From Planktomarina sp. (GTDB lineage Bacteria; Pseudomonadota; Alphaproteobacteria; Rhodobacterales; Rhodobacteraceae): a stretch of DNA of 63,363 bases. The stretch lies in the NCBI GenBank assembly GCA_020629235.1, contig JAHDDS010000005.1, positions 18,098-81,460 on the forward strand. Reading direction: 5' to 3'. Made by a program: the position numbers and the translations under genes. Numbering within the stretch: position 1 is the stretch's first letter; every line of letters begins with the position of its first letter. Below, in pieces: positions 14,276-30,502 of this stretch. A model generated the notes under the pieces. It made no database searches, had not been told where the DNA came from, and worked only from the letters and a program-made list of their open reading frames with translations.

Positions 14276-15430
14276 ATGTGGAAGGCCGTTGCGTCCAACG
14301 CGTTAAGCCTGTTCGTGGTGCTGCTGTTCGTTTTGGGCGGCGTCGTTTTGGCGGGCCGCGACAGCTTTGTGGCCGAAGGGCCGCTGGACACGGCAATCTG
14401 CTTTCGCGTGGAAAGCGGGACGAATTTCACCCGCGTTTCCAATGGCTTAGAAAGCGAAGGCGCCATCAGCAACGCACGGATTTTCAACATCGGCGTGGAT
14501 TATTCCGGCAAGGGCCAAGACCTGAAAGCGGGCAGTTTTCTGATCCCCGCCGGTGCGTCCATGCTGGACATCAAAGAAAAGCTGACCGGCACGGGGCGGT
14601 CCACCTGCGGCACAGAAATCGTGTACCGGTTGGGGGTCACGCGCCTGTCGGTACAGGTGCGTGAATTGGACCCTGAAACCAATCGTTTCAAAGCCTTGGA
14701 AACATTCAATCCCGCCGAAGACGCGCTGCCCGAAACCTATACCCGGTTGCGCGACCAATCTGACACCAAGATTCGCATGGCCGTGGCCGAAGGGATCACC
14801 AGTTGGCAGGTGGTCAACCATCTGAAATCAATCGACTTTTTGGAAGGGACGGTGTCCGCCATCCCGCCTGAAGGCACTTTGGCACCCGACAGTTACGAAG
14901 TGAAACCCGGCGATGATCGCAACGATATTTTGGACCGCATGGCCGCATCGCAGGCGCGCTTGATTGCCGATGCTTGGGAAAATCGCGCATCCGACACGCC
15001 CGTGTCCACCCCAGAAGAGCTGGTGATTCTGGCGTCCATCATTGAAAAAGAAACCGCAGAAGCCGACGAACGCGGCGTGGTGGCTTCGGTCTTTGCCAAC
15101 CGCCTGAAACGCGGGATGAAACTGCAAACCGACCCCACTGTGATTTACGGGATCACCAAGGGCCAGGGCGTTCTGGGACGTGGTCTGCGGCGCAGTGAAT
15201 TGCGCGCGCCAACCCCTTGGAACACCTATGTTATTCCGGCCTTGCCGCCGACACCCATTGCCAATCCAGGCCGCGCTGCGCTGCGGGCCGCGGCTGACCC
15301 GGACACCACCGATTTCATCTTCTTTGTGGCCGATGGGACCGGCGGGCACGCCTTTGCCGAAACCCTGGAAGAACACAATCGCAATGTCGCCCGGTGGCGT
15401 CAGATCGAGGCAGAGCGGGCCGAAAACTAG
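14276..15430 (+). CDS. mltG: Endolytic murein transglycosylase MltG (YceG-like)
   Basis: 384 residues with one N-terminal membrane anchor (about 9-25, ALSLFVVLLFVLGGVVLAG) and a periplasmic YceG domain. ILASIIEKETAE contains the catalytic Glu257, and the FANRLKRGMKLQTDPTVIYGI and ELRAPTPWNTYVIPALPPTPIANPG blocks are diagnostic. It cuts nascent glycan strands and so limits their length. It is one base after fabF. The GTA cluster starts 156 bases downstream. Confidence 0.96.
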   Translation: MWKAVASNALSLFVVLLFVLGGVVLAGRDSFVAEGPLDTAICFRVESGTNFTRVSNGLESEGAISNARIFNIGVDYSGKGQDLKAGSFLIPAGASMLDIKEKLTGTGRSTCGTEIVYRLGVTRLSVQVRELDPETNRFKALETFNPAEDALPETYTRLRDQSDTKIRMAVAEGITSWQVVNHLKSIDFLEGTVSAIPPEGTLAPDSYEVKPGDDRNDILDRMAASQARLIADAWENRASDTPVSTPEELVILASIIEKETAEADERGVVASVFANRLKRGMKLQTDPTVIYGITKGQGVLGRGLRRSELRAPTPWNTYVIPALPPTPIANPGRAALRAAADPDTTDFIFFVADGTGGHAFAETLEEHNRNVARWRQIEAERAEN

Positions 15431-15454: not shown

Positions 15455-15469
15455 TTAACAAACGGTTAA
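15455..15469. promoter_or_regulatory. Perfect CtrA-type site upstream of GTA g1
   Basis: TTAACAAACGGTTAA matches the full CtrA consensus TTAA-N7-TTAA. It lies 25 bases after the mltG stop and 118 bases before g1, in the only gap where the GTA promoter can sit. CtrA is a known activator of GTA expression in Rhodobacterales, largely through other regulators; direct binding here is inferred. Confidence 0.7.
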
Positions 15470-15586
15470 TCCACCGAACGCCCCGAAAACGAAACGCTTG
15501 CTTTTGGCCGCGACGCTTGGCACGTTGTTTGGGCTAGAGGTTGGCATTCCCAACCCTCGTGCGGTCAGCATGAGAGGCACGACCAT

Positions 15587-15934
15587 ATGACATCGCACAA
15601 TCCCGTCGAAGATGACGGGCGTGACGTTGCATTCGAATCCCACGCTCGGGATGCGTTGCTGCGCCACATAAACCGGATTTCCAACGTCATTTCCGCGTTG
15701 GAGGTCGAAGACCCCTTGTCCGTGGCGGCAGAACACGCCCGCCCGTTAACCAAAACGCTTGAGGATGCTGTGTCCCAGATCCTGAAGTTGGAGAAGACCT
15801 TTGCCAGCACATCCAAAGCCGCGCGGCCTGCGCAAGACCCCGCCCAAGCCCTTGACCTGGACGCCGTCCGGGCTTCGATCGGGGGCCAATTGGATAAGCT
15901 GCGCGCCGCCCAAAGTGCAAAGGGCGTTTCTTGA
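15587..15934 (+). CDS. GTA g1, small terminase subunit (TerS-like)
   Basis: 115 residues, largely helical and charged, with a heptad-like stretch (ALLRHINRISNVISALEVEDPLS). It occupies the g1 position of the RcGTA cluster, whose product is known to act as the GTA small terminase despite weak similarity to phage TerS. It would guide the large terminase for headful packaging. AGAGG lies about 10 bases before the ATG. It overlaps the predicted start of g2. Assignment rests mostly on position. Confidence 0.8.
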   Translation: MTSHNPVEDDGRDVAFESHARDALLRHINRISNVISALEVEDPLSVAAEHARPLTKTLEDAVSQILKLEKTFASTSKAARPAQDPAQALDLDAVRASIGGQLDKLRAAQSAKGVS

Positions 15935-17207
15935 CGGGCTCAGCCCGCAAGAAATCCGCGCGCTTCCCTATCTGTGGGAGTTCTGGGCCATGGATCACCA
16001 ACTGCCGCCAGCGGGGGACTGGCGCGCTTGGGTGGTGATCGGTGGGCGCGGGGCGGGCAAAACCCGCGCCGGGGCGGAATGGGTGCGCACCCAAGTCGAA
16101 GGCCCGCGCCCCACCGACGCAGGCGCGCGCACCCGCGTGGCCCTGGTGGCCGACACCATCGATCAGGCCCGCGCGGTGATGATCGAAGGCGAAAGCGGCA
16201 TCCTGGCCTGTTCGCCCCCCGACCGCCGCCCGGTGTGGCGCGCCAGCAAGAAGCAGTTGGAATGGCCCAATGGGGCCGTGGCGCAGGTGTTTTCGGCCCA
16301 AGACCCGGACGCCCTGCGCGGGCCCCAGTTCGACGCCGCGTGGGTCGATGAATTCGCCAAGTTTCGCCGCGCCGAAGACGCCTGGGACATGTTGCAGCTG
16401 TGCCTGCGCATCGGGTCAGACCCGCGGGTTGTGGTCACCACCACGCCCCAAGGTCTGCCCGCCTTGCGCAAGGTGCTGGACGATCCCAAAACCGTGCGCA
16501 CCCACGCCGCCACCCAGGCCAATGCCGCCAATTTGGCGGACAGTTTTCTGGCCGATGTCACGGCCAAATACGACGGCACCCGTTTGGGCCGCCAAGAATT
16601 GTCGGGCGAAATTTTGGACGGTGCGGACGGCGCGCTGTGGACCCGCGACATGTTTGATCGCCGCGCCGTGCCCGACGGGGTGTTCGACCGCGTGGTGGTG
16701 GCCGTGGACCCGCCGGTCAGTTCTGGGGCCCGCGCCGATGAATGCGGCATCGTGGTGGTGGGGGCCAACCTGGACGGGCCGCGCCAGATGTGGCGGGCCA
16801 CCGTGCTGGCCGATGTCAGCCACAAAACCAGCGGCCCCAACGACTGGGCGCGCCGCGCGCAACAGGCCATGCATGTGTTCCAGGCCGACCGCCTGGTGGT
16901 GGAGGTGAACCAAGGCGGCGACATGGTCAAACAAGTCATCCATTCGCGCGATCCCATGATCCCCGTCCGCGCGGTCCATGCGTCCAAGGGCAAGGGCGCG
17001 CGGGCGGAACCTGTGGCCGCCCTGTACGAACAAGGGCGCATCACCCATGTGCCGGGGCTGGACACGCTGGAAGACCAGATGTGCCTGATGACCCCCCAAG
17101 GGTTCCAAGGCCAAGGCAGCCCAGACCGGGTTGATGCCTTGGTGTGGGCCGTGACCGATCTGCTGCTGTCCACAGGGCCATCCACCCCCGGCGTGCGCCG
17201 CATCTGA
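15915..17207 (+). CDS. GTA g2, large terminase subunit
   Basis: 430 residues from a GTG that overlaps g1 by 20 bases; the frame is open upstream to an ATG at 15801 but that part is antisense-like in composition, and an internal ATG at 15990 would cut family-conserved sequence. ATPase: Walker A GGRGAGKT at 43-50, Walker B ending VDE at 144-146. The C-terminal RNase H-like nuclease begins VVVAVDPPVSS. The protein pumps DNA into the head and cuts it. It belongs to the phage terminase family used by GTAs. Confidence 0.94.
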   Translation: MQRAFLDGLSPQEIRALPYLWEFWAMDHQLPPAGDWRAWVVIGGRGAGKTRAGAEWVRTQVEGPRPTDAGARTRVALVADTIDQARAVMIEGESGILACSPPDRRPVWRASKKQLEWPNGAVAQVFSAQDPDALRGPQFDAAWVDEFAKFRRAEDAWDMLQLCLRIGSDPRVVVTTTPQGLPALRKVLDDPKTVRTHAATQANAANLADSFLADVTAKYDGTRLGRQELSGEILDGADGALWTRDMFDRRAVPDGVFDRVVVAVDPPVSSGARADECGIVVVGANLDGPRQMWRATVLADVSHKTSGPNDWARRAQQAMHVFQADRLVVEVNQGGDMVKQVIHSRDPMIPVRAVHASKGKGARAEPVAALYEQGRITHVPGLDTLEDQMCLMTPQGFQGQGSPDRVDALVWAVTDLLLSTGPSTPGVRRI

Positions 17208-17209
17208 CA

Positions 17210-17279
17210 CAATTTCTGTGACAGAAATTGGCCCAGAAACTCTGTGAGTTTCTGAGGCGGAAATCGTGTCGATTTCCGC
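17210..17279. repeat. Array of three perfect hairpins between g2 and g3
   Basis: Three consecutive perfect inverted repeats, each with a 3-base loop: CAATTTCTG/CAGAAATTG (17210-17230, loop TGA), CAGAAACTC/GAGTTTCTG (17234-17254, loop TGT), GCGGAAATCG/CGATTTCCGC (17257-17279, loop TGT). Spacers are three and two bases. Arms of the first two share AGAAA/TTTCT so alternative pairing is possible. No T-run follows. The array begins two bases after the g2 stop codon. Confidence 0.85.
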
Positions 17280-17293
17280 GCCTTTGGCCCCGG

Positions 17294-17331
17294 TTAACGC
17301 GGTCTTAAGCCCCCGGGCGGGCACTTATCGG
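17294..17331 (+). promoter_or_regulatory. Second perfect CtrA-type site with candidate promoter, upstream of g3
   Basis: TTAACGCGGTCTTAA (17294-17308) is again TTAA-N7-TTAA. Its right half overlaps a -35-like TCTTAA, and TATCGG lies 17 bases further on (17326-17331), the layout of CtrA-activated promoters where the box covers -35. GCGGGC and GCCCGC flank the -10. The g3 start follows at 17403 behind a very strong AGGAGGAG site. Direct activation is inferred. Confidence 0.65.
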
Positions 17332-17402
17332 CCCGCTCATCATTTTACGTCAATTTGTTTTCAACGACGCGCTGCAAGGCGCATTTTTCCAGGAGGAGCC
17401 CG

Positions 17403-18563
17403 ATGGTTCTGAAGTATTTCAAAGCGGCCGCGGCCCAACCGGAAGAGGTCAAAGCCTCGGCCGCGGGGCGGGTGATTTCTTACCATTCTTCGGGCCGCGT
17501 GGTGTGGTCGCCGCGCGATGCGGTGTCCATGGTGCGCAACGGCTTTCAGGGAAACCCCGTGGGTTTCCGTGCCGTGCGCCTGATCGCTGAAGCCGCGTCC
17601 AACCTGCCCGTGGTGCTGCAAGACGGCGCGCAACGCTTTGACAGCCATCCGGTGTTGCAAGTCCTGTCCGCGCCCAACCCGGCCCAGACCCAGTCCGATC
17701 TGCTGGACGCCATCGTGGGCCAGTTGGTGCTGTCGGGCAACGCCTATGTCGAACAGGTGGCCGACACCACCGGGGCCGTGGTGGAACTGCACGTGCTGCG
17801 GTCGGACCGCATGTCCGTGGTGCCCGGGACCGACGGCTGGCCCGTGGCGTATGAATACGCCGTGGGGGGGCGCAAGCACCGCTTTTCCATGGTGGACGCC
17901 GCCCCCATCTGCCACATCAAATCCTTCCACCCCCTGGATGATCATTACGGTTTGTCGCCGTTCCAAGCCGCCGCCCAAGCGGTGGATGTGCACAACGCGG
18001 CGTCCAGCTGGTCCAAAGCCCTGCTGGACAATGCCGCGCGGCCATCGGGCGCGATTGTCTACAAAGGTGCAGACGGGCAGGGCAGTCTGGCCCCCGATCA
18101 ATACGACCGCCTGGTGAACGAAATGGAAGCCCACCACCAAGGCGCGCGCAACGCAGGCCGGCCCATGTTGCTGGAAGGGGGCCTGGATTGGAAACCCATG
18201 GGCTTCAGCCCGTCCGATATGGAATTCCAGAAAACCAAAGAAGCCGCCGCGCGTGAAATCGCCACCGCCTTTGGCGTTCCGCCCATGTTGCTGGGGATCC
18301 CAGGCGACGCCACCTATGCCAACTATGCTGAAGCGAACCGGGCGTTTTACCGCCACACCGTGCTGCCCCTGGCGGACCGGGTGGTGGCCGCCCTGTCGAA
18401 CTGGCTGGTGGGGCCGGACGCACAGCTGAAAGTGGACCTGGACCGGGTGCCCGCCTTGGCCACCGAACGCGACGCGCAATGGGCGCGCATCACCGGCGCG
18501 GACTTCCTGTCAGAGGCTGAAAAACGCCAACTGTTGGGCCTGCCTGCAGGGGACGCAAAATGA
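17403..18563 (+). CDS. GTA g3, portal protein (HK97 type)
   Basis: 386 residues. Typical HK97-family portal features: early FRAVRLIAEAASNLPVVL, then LVLSGNAYVEQV, an aspartate-rich middle, and FGVPPMLLGIPGDATYANYAEANRAFYRHTVLPLADRV in the C-terminal third. The dodecameric ring at one capsid vertex is the DNA channel and the terminase docking site. Start 17403 has AGGAGGAG seven bases upstream, among the strongest sites in the window. It overlaps g3.5 by four bases. Confidence 0.96.
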   Translation: MVLKYFKAAAAQPEEVKASAAGRVISYHSSGRVVWSPRDAVSMVRNGFQGNPVGFRAVRLIAEAASNLPVVLQDGAQRFDSHPVLQVLSAPNPAQTQSDLLDAIVGQLVLSGNAYVEQVADTTGAVVELHVLRSDRMSVVPGTDGWPVAYEYAVGGRKHRFSMVDAAPICHIKSFHPLDDHYGLSPFQAAAQAVDVHNAASSWSKALLDNAARPSGAIVYKGADGQGSLAPDQYDRLVNEMEAHHQGARNAGRPMLLEGGLDWKPMGFSPSDMEFQKTKEAAAREIATAFGVPPMLLGIPGDATYANYAEANRAFYRHTVLPLADRVVAALSNWLVGPDAQLKVDLDRVPALATERDAQWARITGADFLSEAEKRQLLGLPAGDAK

Positions 18564-18796
18564 CAGAACACCCTGATTTCCGCCTGGGCTATGACCCCAA
18601 AATGTTCGACCCCGCCGTGCGGATCGAAGCCAACGAACGCCTGTCCGCCATGCAGTTCGAAATGCTGAACACCCGCTTGGACCGGATCGAAGAAGCCATG
18701 GAACGCTTGGAAAAACGCCTGTGGCTGACTGTCTTTGGCGTGGCCGGGGCGATCCTGACCCAGGCCTTCCAGTCTTTCATCACCGCCCCGCTGTAA
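18560..18796 (+). CDS. GTA g3.5, small coiled-coil/membrane protein
   Basis: 78 residues: a short polar N-terminus, a heptad-rich helix (FEMLNTRLDRIEEAMERLEKRL, about 32-53) and one C-terminal hydrophobic segment (WLTVFGVAGAILTQAFQSFI, about 55-74). It sits between portal and protease genes, as the unnumbered orf g3.5 of RcGTA does, and overlaps the g3 stop. No particle role is established for it that I know. It could be a membrane-linked assembly factor. Confidence 0.85.
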   Translation: MTEHPDFRLGYDPKMFDPAVRIEANERLSAMQFEMLNTRLDRIEEAMERLEKRLWLTVFGVAGAILTQAFQSFITAPL

Positions 18797-18807
18797 GGAA
18801 CCAGACC

Positions 18808-19407
18808 ATGACCCAAGCGTTTGATCTTGAACATAAATTCGCCCGCATCGACAGCGCAGTGGCCCAGGATGACACCATGGCCATCGAAGGCTATGCCAGC
18901 TTTTTCGGCACGCCCGATCAAAGCCGCGATGTGGTGGCCAAGGGGGCCTATGCCAAATCGCTGAAGGCGCTGGCCGACGCGGGCCGCACGGTGAAAATGC
19001 TGTGGCAACACGACCCGGCCCAACCCATTGGCGTGTGGGACACGGTGCGCGAAGACGACCGCGGTCTTTATGTCAAAGGTCGCCTGCTGCCCGGGGTGCC
19101 GCGCGCCAAAGAAGCCGCAAGCCTGTTGCAAGCGGGGGCCATGGACGGGTTGTCCATCGGATACCGCACCGTGCGGTCCCACAAGGACGCCCAAGGCCAG
19201 CGCGTGCTGGACGAATTGGACCTGTGGGAAGTGTCGCTGGTGACATTTCCGATGCTGCCGCAAGCGCGCGTCGGGGCCAAATCCGACGCCCTTGATCTGA
19301 CCCCTTATTCCGAAATTGCCCAGGCCTTTGACACGGCCCGGGCGATGTTGGCCACATCCCTGGCCCCAACCCCGTCAAAGCCAACCCAATCCAAGGATGA
19401 ATTTTGA
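18808..19407 (+). CDS. GTA g4, prohead protease (HK97 family)
   Basis: 199 residues. It contains EGYASFFGTPDQSRDVVAKGAY, LWQHDPAQPIG (catalytic His) and GLSIGYRT with the catalytic Ser, then LWEVSLVTFPMLPQARV, the conserved order of U35/HK97 maturation proteases. It trims the N-terminal region of the capsid protein during head maturation. AAGGA lies upstream of ATG 18808. The stop overlaps the g5 start (TGATG). Confidence 0.95.
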   Translation: MTQAFDLEHKFARIDSAVAQDDTMAIEGYASFFGTPDQSRDVVAKGAYAKSLKALADAGRTVKMLWQHDPAQPIGVWDTVREDDRGLYVKGRLLPGVPRAKEAASLLQAGAMDGLSIGYRTVRSHKDAQGQRVLDELDLWEVSLVTFPMLPQARVGAKSDALDLTPYSEIAQAFDTARAMLATSLAPTPSKPTQSKDEF

Positions 19408-20594
19408 TGACACCACCTGAGACCAAAGCTCAGGCCGGGGGCGCACCGTCGCCGGCGGCTGAGATGAAAACGGCCCTGGCCGGGTTCGTCACGGATCTGA
19501 GCCATTTCAAAACTGACATTCAAACCCAACTTACAAAACAGGAAGAGCGACTGATGATGCTGGATCGCAAATCTGCAGCCCTGGCCCGTCCGGCCTTGGC
19601 CACCACTGCCGGGGCCGACGCCCCCCACCAAAAAGCCTTCAACGCCTATGTGCGGTCGGGCGACGACGACGCCCTGCGCGGCTTGGAACTGGACGGCAAA
19701 GCCATGTCCACCGCTGTGGCGGGCGACGGCGGGTATCTGGTGGACCCAGAAACCGCAGCGTCCATCCAGTCCGTTCTGTCGGGCACAGCCTCCATTCGCG
19801 CCATCGCCAATGTGGTGAACGTGGAAGCCACATCTTACGATGTGTTGGTGGACAATTCTGACGTGGGCACCGGCTGGGCCACAGAAACGGGCGGCCAAGC
19901 TGAAACCGGCACCCCAAATGTGGACCGGATCACCATTCCTTTGCACGAACTGTCGGCATTGCCCAAAGCGTCCCAGCGGTTGCTGGACGACAGCGCGTTC
20001 GACGTGGAAACCTGGTTGGCGGGCAAAATCGCCGACAAATTCGCCCGGGCCGAGGCTGCGGCTTTTGTGAACGGCGACGGCGTGGACAAGCCCAAAGGGT
20101 TCTTGACCTATGCCACAGCCGACAACGGGTCCGAGGTGTGGGGCGAATTGGGCCACATCAAATCGGGCGCAGACGGTGCGTTTGACGCGGCCAATCCTGC
20201 CGATGCGATCATCGACCTGGTCTATGCCCTGGGGGCAGATTACCGCGCCAATGCGTCCTTTGTGATGAATTCCAAAACAGCAGGCGAAGTGCGCAAGCTG
20301 AAAGACGCGGACGGGCGTTTCTTGTGGGCCGACAGCCTGGCCGACGGTCAGCCGCCGCGCCTGATGGGATACCCTGTGTTGACGGCCGAAGACATGCCCG
20401 ACATCGACACATGGGCGCCCGCCATTGCGTTCGGTGATTTTTCCAAAGGCTACACCGTGGCCGAACGCCCAGACACGCGCATCCTGCGCGATCCGTTCAG
20501 CGCGAAACCCCATGTCCTGTTTTACGCCACCAAGCGCGTGGGCGGGGACGTGACGGATTTTTCCGCCATCAAACTGCTGAAATTCGCGGCCTAA
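19407..20594 (+). CDS. GTA g5, major capsid protein (HK97 fold)
   Basis: 395 residues. The first ~100 form a scaffold-like delta domain with a coiled-coil stretch (LAGFVTDLSHFKTDIQTQLTKQEERLMMLD) removed by g4. The mature part contains GGYLVDPETAASIQSVL, ATETGGQAETGTPNVDRITIPLHELSALPKASQRLL and DPFSAKPHVLFYATKRVGGDV, typical of HK97-like capsids. The ATG at 19407 is preferred over the TTG one codon earlier because AAGGA is spaced for it. A 177-base structured gap follows. Confidence 0.97.
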   Translation: MTPPETKAQAGGAPSPAAEMKTALAGFVTDLSHFKTDIQTQLTKQEERLMMLDRKSAALARPALATTAGADAPHQKAFNAYVRSGDDDALRGLELDGKAMSTAVAGDGGYLVDPETAASIQSVLSGTASIRAIANVVNVEATSYDVLVDNSDVGTGWATETGGQAETGTPNVDRITIPLHELSALPKASQRLLDDSAFDVETWLAGKIADKFARAEAAAFVNGDGVDKPKGFLTYATADNGSEVWGELGHIKSGADGAFDAANPADAIIDLVYALGADYRANASFVMNSKTAGEVRKLKDADGRFLWADSLADGQPPRLMGYPVLTAEDMPDIDTWAPAIAFGDFSKGYTVAERPDTRILRDPFSAKPHVLFYATKRVGGDVTDFSAIKLLKFAA

Positions 20595-20607
20595 CGGCTT
20601 TGCGATA

Positions 20608-20721
20608 GGGGTGGGGGCCTTCCTTTCCTGTCCCCACCCCGGCGGACGCGCACCATACCAAACCAAAGTGTTGTCTAGCTGCTCCCCCTCCGTCCGAGCA
20701 ACGCTTTGGGGGCGCGTCCGC
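20608..20721 (+). other. Structured segment between capsid (g5) and connector (g6) genes
   Basis: First a 9-bp hairpin, GGGGTGGGG/CCCCACCCC, with a 15-base loop (20608-20640). Then a two-storey hairpin: outer arms GCGGACGCGC (20642-20651) and GCGCGTCCGC (20712-20721) pair perfectly, and inside them CCAAAGTGTTG (20663-20673) pairs with CAACGCTTTGG (20699-20709) with one wobble. There is no T-run. The segment ends 50 bases before g6. Attenuation or mRNA processing that lowers expression after the capsid gene is a reasonable guess. Confidence 0.75.
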
Positions 20722-20771
20722 TTCCCATCCACCCCAACCAGGGGGCCCGCATTTTTCGGAGCCTGTGAAAC

Positions 20772-21371
20772 ATGATGTTAGTCGAAGAGACCACGATCCC
20801 CGCCGCCGCCCTGCCGGTGGACGCGTTCAAGGATCACCTGCGCCTGGGCACAGGCTTTGCCGATGACGGGGTGCAAGATGCCGTGCTGGACAGCTTCCTG
20901 CGGGCGGCCTTGGCCGCGATCGAAGCGCGCACGGGCAAAATCCTGCTGACCCGCGAATTTTCTTGGGCCTTAAGCGATTGGCGCGACCGCTGTTCGCAGC
21001 CCTTGCCCGTGGCCCCCATCACCGGCCTGGTGTCGGTGACGGTGCTGGACCGCGCGGGCAGTGCCACGCCCCAGCCCCTGACCGATTTTGTGCTGGAACA
21101 AGACCACCAGCGCCCCCGGTTGACGGCGGCGGGCCCGCTGCTGCCAGCGATTCCCACGCGGGGGTCCGTGTCGGTGCGCTTTGTGGCAGGGTTTGCCACC
21201 ACCTTCGCAGGGCTGCCTGCCGATCTGGCGCAAGCGGTGCTGATGCTGGCCAGCCATTACTATGACAACCGCAACGCGCTGGGCATTCCGGACACGTCGC
21301 TGCCCTTTGGCGTGGCGGTGCTGGTGGAACGGTACAAGACCGTGCGCATCCTGGGGGGGGCACGCCCATGA
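20772..21371 (+). CDS. GTA g6, head-tail connector
   Basis: 199 residues with the gp6-like connector N-terminus (ALPVDAFKDHLRLGTG..., AVLDSFLRAALAAIEARTGKILL), a beta-rich middle and a C-terminal helix (ADLAQAVLMLASHYYDNRNALG) seen in phage HK97 gp6 proteins. It binds under the portal in the neck. Its stop overlaps the g7 start. Confidence 0.92.
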   Translation: MMLVEETTIPAAALPVDAFKDHLRLGTGFADDGVQDAVLDSFLRAALAAIEARTGKILLTREFSWALSDWRDRCSQPLPVAPITGLVSVTVLDRAGSATPQPLTDFVLEQDHQRPRLTAAGPLLPAIPTRGSVSVRFVAGFATTFAGLPADLAQAVLMLASHYYDNRNALGIPDTSLPFGVAVLVERYKTVRILGGARP

Positions 21372-21706
21372 CTGGCCCCCGTCTGACCCGCCGCTTGGTG
21401 TTGGAAGAAAAGGTCCAGACCGCCGATGGGGCGGGGGGCTTTGTGGAAACTTGGCACGCCCTGGGCACGCTGTGGGGCGACGTGCGGTCGCGCGGCGGCG
21501 GCGAAGGCGAAGTGGACCATTTGCGCCAATCGAAAACAGCGCTGACCGTGTCGATCCGGTCGGCGGGCTTTGGCGCCCCATCGCGCCCCAAGCCGGGCCA
21601 ACGCTTCACCGAAGGGGCGCGGGTCTTTGACATTCACGCCGTGGTGGAACGCGATCCGTCGGCGCGGTTTTTGGACTGTCTGTGCACAGAGGAGGTGCTG
21701 ACATGA
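21368..21706 (+). CDS. GTA g7, head-tail adaptor/stopper
   Basis: 112 residues of the phage head-tail joining family (SPP1 gp16-like): LTRRLVLEEKVQTADGAGGFVETWHALGTLWGDVRSR and the closing KPGQRFTEGARVFDIHAVVERD. A small beta-barrel that closes the neck below the connector. It overlaps both g6 and g8 by four bases. Confidence 0.92.
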   Translation: MTGPRLTRRLVLEEKVQTADGAGGFVETWHALGTLWGDVRSRGGGEGEVDHLRQSKTALTVSIRSAGFGAPSRPKPGQRFTEGARVFDIHAVVERDPSARFLDCLCTEEVLT

Positions 21707-22113
21707 CCTATGCCCTGGGCAGCGCGTTGCAGGCTGCCGTGTACCAATGCCTGACCAATGATGCGCCCCTGACCGCCTTGGTGGGCAGCGATATCTTTGA
21801 CGCGACCCCGCCCGGCACGCCCCCCAGCACCTACGTCAGCTTGGGCCCGGAAGAGGTGAAGGACGCGTCGGATGTGTGTTCTGACGGGGCGTTCCATGAA
21901 TTCACCGTGTCCGTGGTGACGGACCAAGCGGGATTCCAATCCGCCAAGGACATCGCGGCGGCAATTTGTGATGCGCTGGTGGGGGCCGATCTGGTGCTGA
22001 CGCGCGGGGCATTGATTGCCCTGTGGTTTTTGCGCGCCAAGGCCGCACGGTCCGACAATGGCACCACCCGGCGGGTGGACCTGATGTTTCGGGCGCGGGT
22101 TCAAGACGACTGA
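21703..22113 (+). CDS. GTA g8, tail terminator (DUF3168)
   Basis: 136 residues starting at the ATG that overlaps the g7 stop. TYALGSALQAAVYQCLTNDAPLTALVG and YVSLGPEEVKDASD...FHEFTVSVVTDQAGFQ are the DUF3168 pattern. It caps the tail tube and joins it to the neck. The gap to g9 is 53 bases with a clear AAGGAG and nothing else. Confidence 0.9.
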   Translation: MTYALGSALQAAVYQCLTNDAPLTALVGSDIFDATPPGTPPSTYVSLGPEEVKDASDVCSDGAFHEFTVSVVTDQAGFQSAKDIAAAICDALVGADLVLTRGALIALWFLRAKAARSDNGTTRRVDLMFRARVQDD

Positions 22114-22166
22114 CCCACGATCCCTGATTTTCTTTCTGAAATTTAGATGTTTAAGGAGACAACGAC

Positions 22167-22580
22167 ATGGCTGCTCAAAACGGGCGCGACCTGCTGCTGA
22201 AGGTCGATATGGATGGGAACGGACTGTTCCAAACGGTGGCGGGCCTGCGGGCCACGCGCATCAGCTTTAACGCCGAAACGGTGGATGTCACCAACCTGGA
22301 CAGCCAAGGCGGCTGGCGCGAATTGCTGGCGGGGGCTGGCATCAAATCGGCGTCCATTTCCGGCGCTGGCGTCTTCAAGGACGAACTAACCGATGGCCGC
22401 ATCCGCGAAATTTTCTTCGACGGTGCGCATCCGCAGTTTGAAATCATCGTGCCTGATTTTGGCGTCATCGAAGGCCCGTTCCAAGTGGCGGGGCTGGAAT
22501 ATGCCGGCACCCACAATGGCGAGGCGACCTATGACATGTCGCTGGCGTCTGCCGGGCTTTTGGACTTCACGGCCCTGTAA
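22167..22580 (+). CDS. GTA g9, major tail (tube) protein
   Basis: 137 residues. GRDLLLKVDMDGNGLFQTVAGLRATRISFNAETVDVTN and WRELLAGAGIKSASISGAGVF match the phage major tail protein (TP901-1-like) family. It polymerises into the short GTA tail tube. AAGGAG stands upstream. The stop overlaps the g10 start by one base. Confidence 0.93.
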   Translation: MAAQNGRDLLLKVDMDGNGLFQTVAGLRATRISFNAETVDVTNLDSQGGWRELLAGAGIKSASISGAGVFKDELTDGRIREIFFDGAHPQFEIIVPDFGVIEGPFQVAGLEYAGTHNGEATYDMSLASAGLLDFTAL

Positions 22581-22903
22581 TGGCGAACCCGTTTGCAGGC
22601 GAAGTCACGGTGGTGATCGACGGGACCCCCCGGGTGGGCAAGCTGACCCTGGGGGCCTTGGCCGAACTGGAAGCCGCCATGGACGGCGACACCCTGTTTG
22701 CCTTGATCGAACGCTTTGACAGCCAAGGCTTTTCCGCGCGCGACGTGTTGGCGGTGCTGGCGGCCGGACTGCGCGGCGGCGGCTGGCAGGGCAGGGTGTC
22801 TGATCTGCTGACGGCGGACATCGGCGGTGGCCCCGTCGGCGCAGGGCGGGCCGCGGCGCAAATGCTGGCGCTGGCCTTTGCCCCGCCCCAGGACGCGCCC
22901 TGA
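22580..22903 (+). CDS. GTA g10, tail assembly chaperone (GTA_gp10 family)
   Basis: 107 residues with FAGEVTVVIDGTPRVGKLTLGALAELEAAMDG and ARDVLAVLAAGLRGGG, the GTA_gp10 domain. It sits between tail tube and tape-measure genes, where tailed phages encode the tail chaperone pair, here as two separate genes (g10, g10.1) with no frameshift needed. ATGA-type overlaps link it to both neighbours. Confidence 0.92.
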   Translation: MANPFAGEVTVVIDGTPRVGKLTLGALAELEAAMDGDTLFALIERFDSQGFSARDVLAVLAAGLRGGGWQGRVSDLLTADIGGGPVGAGRAAAQMLALAFAPPQDAP

Positions 22904-23115
22904 TGCTGGCCTGGGCGGCGATGCACCGGGCGGGCCTGGCGCGCTTGAAGCTGACACCCGCCCAATTTTGGGCCCTGACGCCCCACGATCTGTTGGTGAT
23001 GCTGGGCCTGGACCAAGGCCCTGCCGCCATGACCCGGGACCGCCTGACCACCTTGATGGACGCGTTCCCAGACACGGACCGCGACAGCGAAGACAAAGGA
23101 CACGACAATGGCTGA
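22903..23115 (+). CDS. GTA g10.1, small tail chaperone partner
   Basis: 70 residues, ending in an acidic tail. The GLARLKLTPAQFWALTPHDLLVMLG core is the phage tail assembly chaperone (rcc01693-type) domain. It overlaps g10 at the start and g11 at the end (eight bases). It probably acts with g10 on the tape-measure protein. Confidence 0.9.
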   Translation: MLAWAAMHRAGLARLKLTPAQFWALTPHDLLVMLGLDQGPAAMTRDRLTTLMDAFPDTDRDSEDKGHDNG

Positions 23116-23743
23116 TTTTGACGATTTCGACGGCCTTCTGGACGGGCTTAGCAGCAGCACCGATGTGATTGCCGCTTTCACCGCCGAACTGGAACGCCTG
23201 CAAACCACCACGGATCAGACCAAGGCCAACGTCAGCGCCTTGGACCGGTCCATGTCGGGGGGCTTGCGCAAAGCCTTCGACGGGTTGGTTTTTGACGGGT
23301 ATCGCCTGTCGGACGCCCTGGGGGTGGTGGCAAAATCAGTGGCCAACACCGCCTATAACGCGGCACTGAAACCCGTGACCGACCACTTCGGCGGGCTGAT
23401 CGGCGGGGCCATGAACGGTCTGTTCGGTGGCAAATTCGCCGACGGCGGGGTCTTCAGCCAGGGCCGGGTGCACGCCTTTGCCAAGGGCGGGGTCATCGAC
23501 GGCCCGGCCACATTTCCCATGCAGGGGGGCTTGGGGCTGATGGGCGAAGCGGGGCCAGAAGCGATCATGCCGCTGACGCGCGGGGCCGACGGCAAGCTGG
23601 GGGTCAAAGCCCAAGGCGGGGCACAGCACGTGCAGGTGACCATGAACATCACCACCCCCGATGTGGGGGGCTTCCAGCGCAGCCAAAGCCAAATCGCCGC
23701 CAACATGTCGCGCGCCTTGTCGCGCGGCCAACGCAATTCCTGA
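23108..23743 (+). CDS. GTA g11, tape-measure protein
   Basis: 211 residues, short as expected for the short GTA tail. The N-terminal half is helical (DVIAAFTAELERLQTTTDQTKANVSALDRSMSGGLRKAF) and the C-terminal half is Gly-rich with FADGGVFSQG, FAKGGVIDGPATFPMQGGLGLMGEAGPEAIMPLTRG, the usual tail-end motif of lambda-like tape measures. It sets tail length. GGAGGG after its stop serves g12. Confidence 0.93.
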   Translation: MADFDDFDGLLDGLSSSTDVIAAFTAELERLQTTTDQTKANVSALDRSMSGGLRKAFDGLVFDGYRLSDALGVVAKSVANTAYNAALKPVTDHFGGLIGGAMNGLFGGKFADGGVFSQGRVHAFAKGGVIDGPATFPMQGGLGLMGEAGPEAIMPLTRGADGKLGVKAQGGAQHVQVTMNITTPDVGGFQRSQSQIAANMSRALSRGQRNS

Positions 23744-23756
23744 CGGAGGGTTCCCC

Positions 23757-24389
23757 ATGGCGTTTCACGACCTTCAATTCCCCACCAATTTGTCTTTTGG
23801 ATCCTCGGGCGGGCCCGAGCGGCGCACCGAGATTGTGACCCTGGCCAACGGCTTTGAAGAACGCAACACGCCGTGGGAACATTCGCGCCGCCGCTATGAC
23901 GCGGGCGCGGCCCTGCGGTCTTTGACCGATGTGGAAGACGTGCTGCATTTCTTTGAAGCCCGCCGTGGCCCGCTGCACGCGTTTCGCTGGAAAGACTGGG
24001 CGGATTACAAATCCAAAGCTGCCGACCGCCAAGTGGACCCCACCGACCAAGTGCTGGGCACGGGCGACGGGGTGGTGACCGAATTTCAACTGATCAAGCG
24101 GTACGGCGCGGGGGATGCGGTTTATGACCGGCCCATCCGCAAGCCGGTGCCGGGTTCGGTGCAAGTGGCCGTCGGCGGCGTGGTGCAGGTGGATACGGTG
24201 GATTTCACTGTGGATTATGCCACTGGGATCGTCAGCTTTGCGCACCCGGTCGATGAATTTGCAGACGTGACTGCGGGGTTCGAATTCGACGTGCCCGTGC
24301 GCTTTGACACCGACCACATCGTCACATCTGTCGACACGTTCAACGCGGGCCAAGTCCCCAACATTCCAGTGGTGGAGGTGCGGGTATGA
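23757..24389 (+). CDS. GTA g12, distal tail protein (DUF2460)
   Basis: 210 residues. Start MAFHDLQFP is set by GGAGGG upstream. FGSSGGPERRTEIVTLANGFEERNTPWEHSRRRYDAG, then FFEARRGPLHAFRWKDWADYKS, are the DUF2460 hallmarks. It links tail tube and hub. It overlaps g13 by four bases. Confidence 0.93.
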   Translation: MAFHDLQFPTNLSFGSSGGPERRTEIVTLANGFEERNTPWEHSRRRYDAGAALRSLTDVEDVLHFFEARRGPLHAFRWKDWADYKSKAADRQVDPTDQVLGTGDGVVTEFQLIKRYGAGDAVYDRPIRKPVPGSVQVAVGGVVQVDTVDFTVDYATGIVSFAHPVDEFADVTAGFEFDVPVRFDTDHIVTSVDTFNAGQVPNIPVVEVRV

Positions 24390-25282
24390 CCGCCGCCAAT
24401 GCAGCCACCGACGCGCTTCACGCGCACTTGAAGACCGGCGTCACCACCGTGGCGCGGGCCTGGGTCATTGAACGCAAAGACGGCACCGTGCTGGGGTTCA
24501 CCGATCACGATATGGACCTGGTGGTGGACGGATACGATTGCACCGCCCAAACCGGCATGACCGCCAAAGCCCTGATCCAAACCACGGGCCTGGCGGTGGA
24601 CAACACCGAAGCCCAAGGGGCCTTGTCCGACGCGCGCATCACAGAGGCGGATATCAACGCGGGCCTCTATGACCACGCGGCGGTGAAAACCTGGCTGGTG
24701 AACTGGCGCAACGTGGCCGACGCCAAGCTGACATTTCAGGGCACGCTTGGGGAAATCCGGCGCAACGGCGGCGCGTTTGAAGTGGAACTGCGGGGCCTGA
24801 CCGAAGACCTGAACACCCAGCAGGGGCGGGTGTATCAAAAGACCTGTCCCCACGTGATGGGCGACGCGGGCTGCCGGGTGGATATGACCGACCCCGCCCA
24901 CCACCTGCGCGCGGCCCTGCTGGGCATCGAAGACCGCAAGCGCCTGCGCCTTGCCCACGACGGGACGTTCCCCGAAGGCTGGTTTTTGCGCGGCAAGCTG
25001 GTGGTGGAAAGCGGGGCGGGCCAACACTATGTCAGTTGGATTGCCAGCGACACGGTGGAAGACGGCGTCCGCGTGTTGGAAACCTGGGAACCCATCCGCG
25101 CCGATCTGCAGGCCGGCGATGTCGTGTTGGTCTGGGCGGGCTGCGACGGGCGGTTGTCCACCTGCCGTGACCGGTTCCACAACGTGGTGAACTTCGGCGG
25201 CTTTCCCCACATCCCGGGCGAAGACTGGATGATGTCTGTGCCCGTGCGCAGCGGCGACAATTCCGGCGGCAGCCTGTCATGA
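24386..25282 (+). CDS. GTA g13, tail hub protein (DUF2163/BR0599), possible Fe-S site
   Basis: 298 residues of the DUF2163 plus phage BR0599 type. TVARAWVIERKDGTVLGFTDHDMDL opens the protein. Four cysteines are placed as two pairs, Cys154/Cys163 (TCPHVMGDAGC) and Cys253/Cys260 (GCDGRLSTC), fitting the iron-sulfur cluster reported for the RcGTA hub. It is the junction between tube and baseplate. Overlaps g12 and g14. Confidence 0.93.
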   Translation: MTAANAATDALHAHLKTGVTTVARAWVIERKDGTVLGFTDHDMDLVVDGYDCTAQTGMTAKALIQTTGLAVDNTEAQGALSDARITEADINAGLYDHAAVKTWLVNWRNVADAKLTFQGTLGEIRRNGGAFEVELRGLTEDLNTQQGRVYQKTCPHVMGDAGCRVDMTDPAHHLRAALLGIEDRKRLRLAHDGTFPEGWFLRGKLVVESGAGQHYVSWIASDTVEDGVRVLETWEPIRADLQAGDVVLVWAGCDGRLSTCRDRFHNVVNFGGFPHIPGEDWMMSVPVRSGDNSGGSLS

Positions 25283-25713
25283 CCCAAGCCGTGGTGGACG
25301 CCGCGCGCGCCTGGATCGGCACGCCCTATCTGCACCAGGCCAGCACCAAAGGCGCGGGCAGCGATTGTTTGGGCCTGGTGCGCGGTGTGTGGCGCGACCT
25401 GCTGGGGGCCGAGCCCGCCCAGGTCCCGGTTTATTCCCGCGACTGGGACGAGGTGGACCGCGCAGAACGGCTGTGGCGGGCCACCGCGCGGTATCTGCTG
25501 GCCAAGCCCCTGGCCCACGCCGCCCCAGGCGACGTGATATTGTTTCGGATGCGCACCGGCTGTGTGGCCAAGCATTTGGGCATTCAATCTGCCGTGGGGG
25601 ACGCGGCGCAATTTATTCACGCCTATGGCGGGTATGCGGTGACGGAAAGTCCCCTCAGCCAGCCGTGGCAGCGCCGGATTGTGGCGCGGTTTGCATTTCC
25701 GTTGAAGGGATAA
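25279..25713 (+). CDS. GTA g14, NlpC/P60-type cell-wall peptidase
   Basis: 144 residues. Catalytic Cys30 is in GSDCLGLVRGVWRDLLG, His99 in VAKHLGIQS, and the third residue is likely in the FIHAYGGYAV stretch. This papain-like fold cuts peptidoglycan so DNA can cross the recipient wall. It sits between hub and megatron genes and ends four bases before g15 (AAGGG in the junction). Confidence 0.94.
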   Translation: MTQAVVDAARAWIGTPYLHQASTKGAGSDCLGLVRGVWRDLLGAEPAQVPVYSRDWDEVDRAERLWRATARYLLAKPLAHAAPGDVILFRMRTGCVAKHLGIQSAVGDAAQFIHAYGGYAVTESPLSQPWQRRIVARFAFPLKG

Positions 25714-25717
25714 ACCC

Positions 25718-28700
25718 ATGGCAACTTTGGTTCTTTCGGCCGCCGGTATGGCGCTTGGCGGCGCAATCAACGGCACCGTGGCGGGCTTGGCCACCGCCAC
25801 CATCGGCCGGGCCGCTGGCGCCATGGTGGGGCGCGTCATTGACCAGCGCTTGATGGGCGGGGGCAGCGCGTCTGTGGAAACGGGACGGGTGGACCGCTTC
25901 CGTTTGACCGGGGCCAGCGAAGGGGCCCCCGTGGGGCAAGTTTACGGCCGTATGCGCGTCGGGGGCCAAGTGATCTGGGCCACCCGGTTCCAAGAACGCG
26001 CCACCGCCACGCGCCAGGGCGGCAAAGGTGCGCCGCGCCCCACCACGACAGAATATTCCTACAGCGTCAGCCTGGCCATCGCGCTGTGCGAAGGCACCAT
26101 CACCAGCGTGGGGCGGGTCTGGGCGGACGGGGCCGAAATTGCAGTCAATGACTATACCATGCGGGTTTATTCAGGCGCAGACGATCAGATGCCTGACCCC
26201 AAGATCGTGGCGGTGGAAGGGGCCGGGCAGGCCCCTGCGTTTCGCGGCACGGCCTATGTCGTGTTTGAAGACCTGCCGCTTGGGGCCTTTGGCAACCGCA
26301 TTCCCCAGTTCAGTTTCGAGGTGACCCGCCCGTCGGACCCCAAAGACGGCCCCGTGGTGCAAGACCTAAGCCATGCCATCGGTGCTGTGGCGCTGATGCC
26401 GGGGTCGGGTGAATACACCCTGGCCACGACGCCGGTGTTCTTTGATCGCGGTTTCGGCAAGACCGAGGCCGCCAATGTGCACACCGCATCGGGCCTGACG
26501 GATGTGGCCACATCGCTGGAAACCCTGACCGACGAATTGCCCAATTGCCGGTCCACATCTTTGATCGTGTCTTGGTTCGGCAATGACCTGCGCGCGGGCG
26601 ACTGCCAATTGATGCCCAAGGTGGAACAAGCGGATGAAGACGGCGCGCAAATGCCTTGGGTCGTGTCCGGCCAACCGCGCGCCACTGCCACCGTGATTGC
26701 CCAAGAAGACGACCGGCCCGTCTATGGCGGCACCCCTGCGGATGCGTCCGTGATCGAAGCCATTCAGGCCATCCAAGGCAGCGGCCAAGACGTTCTGTTT
26801 TACCCCTTCATCTTGATGGACCAACTGCGCGGAAACGGCTTGCCCAATCCGTGGGACGCCAGCGGCGAACAACCCCATTTGCCTTGGCGGGGGCGCATCA
26901 CCACATCGCGCGCGCCGGGCCAACCAGACAGCACCGATCAAACGGCTGCCGCAGCGGCAGAAGTGGACGCGTTTTTTGGCACAGCCCAAGCCACGGACTT
27001 CAGCCCCAACGGCACCACCGTCGACTACACCGGCCCGCAAGAATGGTCGTACCGTCGGTTCATCTTGCACTATGCCCACCTGTGCGCTTTGGCCGGCGGG
27101 GTCGAGGCATTTTGCATCGGGTCCGAAATGCGCAGCCTGACGCAAATCAGGGACGGCAATGGCACCTTTGTCGCGGTGCAAAAAATGGTGGAACTGGCCG
27201 CAGACGTGCGCAGTATTTTGGGGCCAGACACCAAGATTTCCTATGCCGCGGATTGGTCCGAATACTTCGGATATCAGCCCCAGGACGGCACAGGGGACCG
27301 GTATTTTCACCTGGACCCGCTGTGGGCAGACGACAATATCGACTTCATCGGCATCGACAATTACATGCCGCTGTCGGATTGGCGGGACGGGTGTGATCAC
27401 AAAGACATCGGCGCCAAGTCGATTTATAATCTGGACTATCTGCAGGCCAACGTGGAAGGCGGCGAAGGGTACGACTGGTACTATGAAACGCCCGAAGCGC
27501 GCGAAGCCCAAAACCGCACCCCCATCCAAGACGGCAGTGAATCAGAGCCTTGGGCGTTTCGGTATAAGGACATTCGCGGCTGGTGGACAAACCCGCACTA
27601 TGAACGCGTGGGGGGCGTGCGGTCCCTGCAGCAGACGGCCTGGGTGCCGCAGTCAAAACCCGTCTGGTTCACGGAAATCGGATGCGCGGCCATAGATAAA
27701 GGCACCAATCAACCCAACAAGTTTTTGGATCCCAAAAGCTCTGAAAGTTCGGTGCCGCGTTATTCCAACGGGCGGCGCGATGAACTGATCCAGATGCAAT
27801 ATTTGCGGGCGATGTATTCCCACTGGGGGCAGGGGGCCAACAATCCGGTGTCCGATGTATACGGCGGTGCGATGCTGGATATGTCGCGGGCCCATGTGTG
27901 GGCTTGGGATGCACGGCCGTTCCCGACATTCCCGAACCGGTCTGACGTATGGTCGGACGCCGCAAACTATGCCCAAGGCCACTGGATTTCGGGGCGCACG
28001 TCGGCCCGGCCCTTGGATTCCGTCGTGCGCGAGATTTGTGAAAGATCGGGCGTCACCCGCATCGATACCCGCGAACTTTACGGCTATGTCCGGGGGTACG
28101 GCGTGGGGGCCGTGGGCAGTGCGCGCCAAGCGCTGCAGCCGCTTATGACCGCCTTTGGCTTTGACGCAGTGGAACGCGATGGCGTTTTGATCTTCAAAAA
28201 CCGCACCACGAAATGGGCCAGTGATCTGCATGATCCTTCGTTGGTGGTGGAAGGCGATCAGGTGTTTCCTGTGTCCTATGTCCGTGACCCGCAGGCCGAA
28301 CTGGCTGATCGCGTGCGGCTGTCGTTCATTGATGCCGACGGCAGTTTTGAAGTGGCCGCCAGCGAATCCATCTTCCCCAGCGACACCACGCAAGATGTGG
28401 CCCAATCCGAATTGAACCTGATGCTGACCCGGGCCGAAGCGCGCCAGATCACCGACAGGTGGTTGGCCGAAAGCCGGTCCGCGCGCGACCGGGCCGAATT
28501 TGTTTTGCCCCCGTCAGATGCCCCCATCGGCGCGGGCGACGTGGTGACGCTGCAAGAACCCGGCGGGCGGGCCAAATACCGGATTGATCGGTTGGAACAT
28601 TCCGGCCCGCGCCGGGCCGAAGCGGTGCGGGTGGACGGGTCTTGGGACTTGCCCATTGCCGCGCAAGATGACCCGGCGGTGGTGGCGCAGGCGGCGGTGG

Positions 28701-29698: not shown

Positions 29699-30502
29699 AT
29701 GGCACAGTCCGCATCCAGCATATCCGCCTTTGATCCTGTTTGGGATCAGGTGGTCAAAGACGCCGAAGCGACCGTCCACGATGAACCGGCCTTGGGCGGT
29801 TTGGTACATTCCAACATCTTGCACCACGCGTCTTTGCAGGCGGCACTGGCCTATCGCACGGCAACGAAGCTGGCGTCTGACGGAATGCCCGAACAAATCC
29901 TGCGGGAAGTCAGCAACGCGGCCTTTGGCGATATGGACCTTGTGGGTGCTGCGCGGGCCGATTTGGTGGCAGTGTTTGACCGCGATCCCGCGTGCCACCG
30001 GATGATCCAACCGATCCTGTTTTTCAAAGGCTATCAGGCAATCCAAGCCTATCGCGTGGCCCATTGGCTGTGGCGGCAAGACCGCAAGGACATGGCGTAT
30101 TACGTGCAGTCCCGCGCGTCCGAGGTTTTTGGCGTGGACATCCACCCCGCTGCGCGCGTGGGTCAAGGCATCATGATTGATCACGCCCATTCCATTGTCA
30201 TCGGCGAGACGGCCGTGGTGGGGGACAATGTGTCCATGCTGCATTCGGTGACTTTGGGGGGCACAGGCAAAGAAGACGACGACCGCCACCCCAAGATTGG
30301 CGATGGGGTGCTGATCGGGGCTGGGGCCAAAGTGCTGGGCAACATCAAAGTGGGGCATTGCAGCCGCATCGCGGCGGGGTCTGTTGTGTTGCACGAAGTG
30401 CCGCCGTGCAAAACCGTGGCAGGGGTGCCCGCCAAAATCGTGGGCGAAGCAGGCTGTGATCAACCGTCCATGACCATGAACCAACTTTTGGGCTTGGGGT
30501 AA
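29699..30502 (+). CDS. cysE: Serine O-acetyltransferase
   Basis: 267 residues. The N-terminal helical half (DPVWDQVVKDAEATVHDEPALGGLVHSNILHHASL) and hexapeptide beta-helix (VDIHPAARVGQGIMIDHAHSIVIGETAVVGDNVSMLHSVTLGG, then ...IGAGAKVLGNIKVGHCSRIAAGSVV) are CysE. It makes O-acetylserine for cysteine synthesis and is normally feedback-inhibited by cysteine. GAGGG precedes the ATG. This gene follows the GTA cluster in many Rhodobacterales, so its position supports the cluster being at its ancestral site. Confidence 0.96.
   Translation: MAQSASSISAFDPVWDQVVKDAEATVHDEPALGGLVHSNILHHASLQAALAYRTATKLASDGMPEQILREVSNAAFGDMDLVGAARADLVAVFDRDPACHRMIQPILFFKGYQAIQAYRVAHWLWRQDRKDMAYYVQSRASEVFGVDIHPAARVGQGIMIDHAHSIVIGETAVVGDNVSMLHSVTLGGTGKEDDDRHPKIGDGVLIGAGAKVLGNIKVGHCSRIAAGSVVLHEVPPCKTVAGVPAKIVGEAGCDQPSMTMNQLLGLG

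Follow-up and report, generated by a model that had tools for sequence, protein, structure and literature searches.

The subject of this report is a stretch of DNA of 63,363 nucleotides from Planktomarina sp. (family Rhodobacteraceae), here called the window, and in it a cluster of genes for a gene transfer agent (GTA), a domesticated virus that transfers host DNA from cell to cell. The cluster, which runs from the terminase to the 'megatron' next to cysE, is an RcGTA-type gene transfer agent. It holds two exact TTAA-N7-TTAA sequences, one before the first gene, g1, and one in the gap between g2 (large terminase) and g3 (portal); the consensus for the cell-cycle regulator CtrA is TTAA-N7-TTAAC (PMC4046655). 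From the sequences compared here, we consider it reasonably probable that the cluster has two promoters, P1 before g1 and P2 in the g2-g3 gap, each with a GafA-type input and a CtrA input. Coordinates are collected in Table 1. Papers are cited by PMC number, for the passages of them that were available.

Two CtrA-type sites in the window and the motif in the genome

The initial annotation had placed exact TTAA-N7-TTAA at 15455-15469 (site 1) and 17294-17308 (site 2) and nowhere else in the window, and had expected less than one such pair by chance. Scanning of the sequence gave the same two copies, and 100 dinucleotide shuffles of the window contained 0.06 copies on average, no shuffle having two. 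Site 1 lies between the stop of mltG (15430) and g1 (15587), and site 2 between the stop of g2 (17207) and the ATG of g3 (17403).

The motif was also counted in the window's own genome (2.59 Mb in 124 contigs, 86.9% complete). Among 55 places for all spacings from N4 to N10, 27 had N7, which is thus about as frequent as the other six spacings together. Outside the GTA cluster there were 25 N7 sites, six within an open reading frame (ORF) and 19 not, by a crude gene call. Their neighbours included a CckA-like kinase (a match cut by the contig end and below the family cut-off), RpoH, an autoinducer-binding LuxR-type regulator and a PAS-domain protein; for Dinoroseobacter shibae, CtrA sites are listed at cckA, divL, rpoH1 and luxR2 (PMC4046655). 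Further neighbours were DnaB, RadC, a MerR-type regulator and a CheB/CheR protein, which are not named among the targets in the available passages of that paper.

The same genome encodes CtrA (genome G000, contig C17), 74% identical to the Caulobacter crescentus protein over 202 amino acids, and GafA (PF20057). Upstream of ctrA it carries GTAAC-N6-TTAA and upstream of gafA TTAAC-N6-GTAA, and both forms have been reported (PMC6363796). Within the genus, GTAA-N7-TTAA was found 58-64 nt before the start of ctrA in all six upstream regions examined, and TTAAC-N6-GTAA before or at the frame start in all seven gafA loci examined (L204-L210). When the gafA regions of genus and family were taken together, leaving out L219, which had no open frame, 28 of 33 contained an N7 site with at most one mismatch. 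At sites 1 and 2 the two TTAA half-sites, 7 bp apart, are exact, and before g1 this spacing is specific, as shown below. Both are probably real CtrA sites, one for each transcription block.

The site before g1 and promoter P1

Two sets of loci were used for comparison. For set A the best 80 of 101 matches, all of them named loci, were taken; it includes one of the same genus, L025 (labelled Planktomarina sp. MAG-137), which is the nearest, with a terminase 85% identical to that of the window. Genome G007 and L025 appear to be the same genome and were counted as one. Set B came from a family-wide search in which a terminase was present in 290 of 325 genomes. The first 86 places after the window's own genome, best matches first, were taken minus six (G060, G230, G107 and G079, near a contig end; G040 and G074, without good reason), which gave 80 genomes; ten of these overlapped earlier loci and were dropped, leaving 70 loci. 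A near site is TTAA-N7-TTAA with at most one mismatch.

Immediately upstream of g1, in the region 300-650 nt before g2, 39 of the 80 set A loci had a near N7 site (39 of 77 when only loci with the full region are counted). For set B the number was 44, or 43 of 70 when the whole 15-mer must fall inside the region. Shuffling gave means of 6.3 and 5.6 loci for the two sets and a maximum of 12 in each; the combined figure was 82 of 147 loci against about 12 expected. The spacing was specific. Near sites in set A numbered 43 for N7 against 12, 13, 9 and 9 for N5, N6, N8 and N9, and perfect sites 11 against 0, 1, 0 and 0. In set B there were 49 near N7 sites against 4 to 19 for other spacings, N11 being the highest of these, and 17 perfect N7 sites against one each for N9 and N11 and none for N4, N5, N6, N8 or N10. 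Perfect N7 sites were present in 10 loci of set A and 16 of set B, with shuffled means of 0.4 and 0.3. Among the 28 perfect sites there is a leaning towards GTTAAC-N5-GTTAA, which is given as the form of the CtrA site in D. shibae (PMC7232146). The spacing controls and the shuffles rule out chance AT-richness before g1. A CtrA-type site at this place, as judged by sequence comparison, is widespread in the family and not special to the locus of the window.

A matrix for P1 was seeded from 54 loci by means of a hand-made pattern. It reads TTGACT-N17-TATAAC followed by GGCATGCTAGAAGA and fitted 95 of the 147 usable loci. When these promoters were aligned, 65 of the 95 had an N7 site with at most one mismatch near the -35 box, and perfect sites numbered 22 for N7 and zero for N3-N6 and N8-N11. 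Relative to the -35 box, the N7 sites started at -68 to -66 (5 sites), -59 to -53 (41 sites, 26 of them at -56), -47 to -44 (7 sites) and -26/-25 (14 sites), and singly at -37, -29, -15 and +18. The main clusters, near -67, -56, -45 and -26, are thus separated by steps of about one or two helical turns. At 10.5 bp the phasing vector for the 20 distinct positions had a length of 0.60, and none of 20,000 uniform draws reached the vector for 19 positions (the site at +18 left out). The helical phasing is suggestive; -37 and -29 fit it poorly, -15 is a single site, and neighbouring positions are not independent.

By eye, we read the P1 core of the window as a diverged form of the family GTA promoter. 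L025 has two overlapping perfect N7 sites that start 54 and 43 bp upstream of its -35-like box. Conservation of both sites in close relatives had been proposed as a check of the initial annotation, and for site 1 the outcome was mixed, a perfect site being present in two of five genomes of the genus (the window and G007).

The site in the g2-g3 gap

For site 2 conservation was upheld. A terminase was found in 5 of 20 genomes of the genus, and the g2-g3 gap was readable in four (the window, G007/L025, G009/L112 and G019/L111; in G008 the contig stops inside g2). All four gaps contain a perfect N7 site. It starts 109, 107, 110 and 107 nt before the ATG of g3, whereas the stretch between the g2 stop and the site measures anything from a few to 97 nt. 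Bare descent is unlikely to explain this conservation, as the terminase of G009 shares only 59% identity with that of the window. The L111 locus, on a single contig of 3,288,122 bases, has its large terminase split over two frames, and the site beside it is perfect.

The near sites in the gaps of the wider sets showed no preference for N7: in set A there were 12 for N5, 10 for N6, 12 for N7, 1 for N8 and 11 for N9, and in set B 13 for N7 and 16 for N6. One gap, that of L136, has a one-mismatch N7 site, with no composite element of the kind described below seen beside it. Six loci (L135, L138, L148, L175, L180 and L181) carry a perfect TTAA-N6-TTAA near the g2 stop, which is not the CtrA spacing. 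Site 2 as a family-wide CtrA site was ruled out, and on the sequences compared it is specific to Planktomarina.

The initial annotation had also described a -35-like element overlapping site 2 with a -10 box 17 bases on, and a very strong ribosome site before g3. The ribosome site, AGGAGGAG, is there. The -10 box was discarded as not conserved: at an offset of about 17 bases the four Planktomarina-type sequences read TTATCG, TTTTCT, TTGAGA and GTTCGC.

A composite element in the gap and its likeness to gafA promoters

What the initial annotation overlooked, besides the family-wide spread of the site before g1, is a conserved composite element in the gap that resembles the promoter of gafA. Motif discovery in the gaps of sets A and B gave the composite GCGCACGGTGgg ... 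TTTTAA ... TT ... g.CAtAAc. A matrix was built on 74 set A gaps, none from Planktomarina, and the threshold was set at the 99th percentile of shuffled gaps. It matched 18 of 67 set B gaps (3 on the reverse strand); in the four Planktomarina gaps the match starts 19, 19, 19 and 20 nt after the start of the CtrA site. A matrix trained on set B, which is shifted downstream, matched 27 of 74 set A gaps (4 on the reverse strand) and starts 37, 37, 37 and 38 nt after the same point. Both training directions together found the composite in 45 of 141 gaps against 7 on the reverse strand. About a third of the gaps outside Planktomarina thus carry it, as scored by these matrices at the strict threshold.

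In the window, the element scores 9.8 with a matrix trained without Planktomarina; three positions on the + strand, at two places, and one on the - strand score higher. In L025, L112 and L111 it is the best + strand match of the whole locus.

The likeness to gafA promoters was measured with a third matrix, from 56 gaps without Planktomarina, of the 78 that scored above 9 among 151. Upstream of gafA (33 regions) its forward mean was 10.6, compared with 1.5 for the reverse strand (p = 4e-7) and 0.1 for permuted columns (p = 3e-9). The set A matrix matched 22 of the 33 regions (4 on the reverse strand). In 108 of 149 loci an element of P1, TTGCGCACGGTCT, which lies there between -35 and -10, had a better score in the gap than on the reverse strand (p = 6e-9), and its gap scores also exceeded those in terminase coding DNA. 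The word GCGCACGGT has 18 perfect + strand copies, of which P1 accounts for six and the bins of the g2 end and the gap for 11, though only 8 of those 11 lie 6-19 nt after the g2 stop and several come from close relatives. In Rhodobacter capsulatus the C-terminal part of GafA binds the P1 core and a gafA promoter fragment with a predicted -35 (PMC9638019), and for this reason the elements common to P1, the gap and gafA are good candidates for GafA sites.

The right half of the composite, GTTTANNATTTNGAAACAAT, occurs at 14 places on both strands of the window's own genome with at most 3 mismatches (backward control, 1), some of the 14 being one inverted repeat counted twice. It was rejected as a marker of a GafA regulon: in the sequences inspected, the left half accompanies it only at the gafA copy, and by eye no GTA gene was seen at the other places. 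This half may belong to another regulator. Besides gafA, 13 listed places of the genome (L250-L262) have repeats of the form GTTT...GAAACAAT, some being the same repeat on both strands.

Presence of GTA, GafA and CtrA in the genus

In the genus, all five terminase-bearing genomes give unbroken matches for both CtrA and GafA. Of the 15 genomes that lack a terminase, two show a full-length, unbroken CtrA of more than 70% identity and one an unbroken GafA, and several keep broken or partial remnants of these genes. GTA, GafA and CtrA seem, from these matches, to be lost together in the genus, with draft genomes limiting the count.

Proposed control of the two blocks and its alternatives

GafA-type elements are found at P1 (in other genera), in the gap and at gafA, and CtrA-type sites at gafA and, in the Planktomarina lineage, at P2 and partly at P1. 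This arrangement fits co-activation, with repression and an anti-termination element as its main rivals. P1 would drive the terminase (packaging) genes, and P2 the portal, capsid and tail genes. Both would be promoters of a GafA-responsive type, and in the Planktomarina lineage each would have a site for a CtrA dimer directly upstream. We infer that CtrA bound at both sites recruits or stabilises RNA polymerase and that transcription also starts at P2. Full expression of the GTA would then need GafA, itself under the control of CtrA and GafA, together with CtrA at the cluster. The result would be a coherent feed-forward, AND-type switch, which could also allow separate timing of packaging and particle genes. 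The direct, split control by CtrA that the initial annotation had proposed thus stands as the best reading of the sequence, with site 1 backed by the wider family, and has lost its particular -35/-10 at site 2.

Several results weigh against co-activation at two promoters. For R. capsulatus, a 633-bp probe of the RcGTA promoter showed no shift with CtrA in vitro, from which the author concluded that control is indirect, and GafA raised RcGTA transcripts without ctrA (PMC6363796). Within the genus, no site within one mismatch was found before g1 in G008, G009 or G019, and the P1 matrix scores neither the window nor L025, L112, L111 or L113. Of the aligned P1 promoters, 30 of 95 have no N7 site within one mismatch, and near sites occur at them for other spacings too (5 to 20, N11 having 20; N7 has 71). 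A perfect N7 site is present in the g2-g3 gap of none of the 149 loci outside the genus (one of these, L070, ends early in the gap); the perfect sites in set B gaps are N6 (six), N8 (two) and N10 (one). With the set A matrix, just 37 of 67 set B gaps have a forward score above the reverse one (p = 0.014). The set B matrix fails to recognise gafA promoters (7 matches, 8 on the reverse strand; forward above reverse in 17 of 33, p = 0.8), and a matrix from the gafA regions scores the gaps just slightly above the reverse strand (81 of 137, p = 0.018). Finally, the loci share ancestry, so that the counts are not independent, and set B is the top of a ranked list.

We think it unlikely that site 2 represses instead, CtrA at P2 holding back the head and tail genes during growth until its dephosphorylation or proteolysis lets GafA fire P2. 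Such a role would suit the position of site 2 directly upstream of the composite, whose 54-column form begins 2-3 nt after the site, so that steric exclusion is possible; it would also suit the need for unphosphorylated CtrA in gafA transcription in R. capsulatus (PMC9638019). However, the P1 sites of relatives are upstream of -35 and mostly about a helical turn apart, as is usual for activators, and when CtrA is missing, GTA expression disappears or drops in R. capsulatus and D. shibae (PMC6363796, PMC4046655).

An equally low probability is given to P1 alone driving the cluster, the gap element serving for anti-termination loading or processing. The terminator that GafA lets the polymerase pass would in that case be three tandem perfect hairpins that precede P2, the only ones in the window with a stem of at least 9 bp and a loop of 3 nt. 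Three hairpins are also present in L025 (about 5295-5385), where, by eye, both arms have changed and pairing is kept. In Caulobacter, GafZ works as an anti-terminator on repeats that follow the first GTA gene (PMC11150451), and the shared GCGCACGGT-type element lies at P1 between -35 and -10, the place reported for the GafZ element. However, the hairpins have no U-tract and were not seen in the g2-g3 gaps of L112 or L111, the composite resembles the gafA upstream region (one of two gafA cross-checks failed), and site 2 keeps its distance from g3 and not from g2. With two promoters, the hairpins, placed after the g2 stop and before site 2, may shield P2 from P1.

Binding of the sites by another regulator with a TTAAC half-site, for example a Dnr/Fnr protein, is very improbable: the D. 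shibae site TTAAC-N4-GTCAA has the same half-site, and reports from R. capsulatus place FnrL close to the capsid gene of RcGTA and CrtJ close to the first GTA gene (PMC7232146), but the spacer quoted is shorter by one base, set A has just one perfect N6 site before g1 and set B none, and N7 sites of the window's own genome stand by the cckA-like, rpoH and luxR-type genes that are reported CtrA targets in D. shibae (PMC4046655).

The locus and its other features

Profile searches confirmed MltG, terminase, portal, protease, capsid and the GTA 'megatron', the last with an NF048004 match of 1866.6 bits. For g1 there was no match in Pfam, NCBIfam or PHROG; tblastn found relatives of it in L106, L112 and L113. 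No known RNA family reached its gathering score in the window. The structural cluster (15587-29635) looks full, in a genome of the Planktomarina group. According to the available passages of PMC10675870, no RCA genome has a complete GTA; the contrast holds only if the genome of the window belongs to that RCA set.

The leader of g1 contains a hairpin that includes the g1 ribosome site and is also present in L025, L112 and L113. It was rejected as a family feature, the pattern occurring at g1 only in Planktomarina-type loci; translational control of g1 is possible. In several other loci (e.g., L027, L029 and L136) the g1 leader has, by eye, a GC-rich hairpin and then a T run just after P1. These resemble intrinsic terminators and, by analogy, would fit anti-termination by GafA as in Caulobacter.

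Table 1. Features of the GTA locus, in positions of the window
Feature	Position	Strand	Basis or remark
mltG, endolytic transglycosylase, upstream of the GTA cluster	14276..15430	+	TIGR00247 E 1.9e-66, PF02618
CtrA-type site 1, TTAACAAACGGTTAA	15455..15469	+	starts 43 bp upstream of the P1 -35-like hexamer
P1 core (putative): -35-like TTGCTT 15498-15503, poor -10 CACGTT 15521-15526, GCTAGAGG 15533-15540	15498..15540	+	by eye against the family consensus
Leader hairpin CCTCGTGC-GGTCA-GCATGAGAGG	15555..15577	+	includes g1 ribosome site
g1, probable small terminase (by position)	15587..15934	+	ORF list
g2, large terminase, GTG start proposed	15915..17207	+	PF03237 E 5.2e-26, PF17289 E 9.2e-16
Three tandem perfect hairpins, stems 9, 9 and 10 bp, 3-nt loops	17210..17279	+	hairpin search
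CtrA-type site 2, TTAACGCGGTCTTAA	17294..17308	+	exact TTAA-N7-TTAA, 109 nt before g3 ATG
P2 composite element (putative), common to g2-g3 gaps of other genera, similar to gafA promoters	17310..17363	+	matrix score 9.8
Ribosome-binding site AGGAGGAG	17391..17398	+	read in the sequence
g3, portal, first gene of the head/tail block	17403..18563 (ATG at 17403)	+	PF04860 E 5.1e-92
Rest of the structural block: protease, capsid, connectors, tail proteins, megatron	18721..29635	+	profile searches
cysE, serine acetyltransferase, adjoining the GTA cluster	29699..30502

Comparison with known systems

The titles, abstracts and passages available, mainly from openly accessible papers, contain no report of a CtrA site at the g1 promoter of a GTA or of a second promoter before g3. 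It is R. capsulatus that provided the model of indirect control from a single promoter. Control of the GTA by CtrA by way of GafA was thus concluded from one species, while over half of the loci compared here keep a CtrA-type site at the GTA promoter, and a good part of them carry another conserved element, located between the genes for packaging and those for the particle. Tentatively, and at somewhat less than even odds, many RcGTA-type clusters of Rhodobacteraceae might have two promoters, P1 with direct CtrA input on one helix face and P2 copying the logic of the gafA promoter. R. capsulatus would then be the exception, and lineages would move the CtrA input between P1, P2 and gafA, Planktomarina having fixed it at P2. 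This could explain the timing of DNA packaging relative to particle assembly, and the link of lethal GTA production to the cell cycle.

The RcGTA promoter of R. capsulatus belongs to the same kind of cluster and stands before g1, with GafA bound in the region of its -10 and transcription start site (PMC6363796, PMC9638019). Unlike what is proposed here, CtrA did not bind it in vitro, and no second promoter before g3 is described in those passages. The CcGTA of Caulobacter, with GafY, IHF and GafZ, is similar in having a dedicated activator and a barrier after the first gene; it differs in that IHF is the named partner and anti-termination the mechanism, and no second promoter is described in the passages available (PMC11150451). 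Phages of Alphaproteobacteria with CtrA sites likewise place phage genes under the CtrA of the host, but they are infecting phages, and GTAs are mentioned there just as being under CtrA control in general (PMC9437464). The gafA promoter of Rhodobacterales has a CtrA site and autoregulation by GafA (PMC6363796), and its upstream element resembles the composite of the gap. In gafA promoters the CtrA site is downstream of the composite, whereas in the Planktomarina gap it is upstream.

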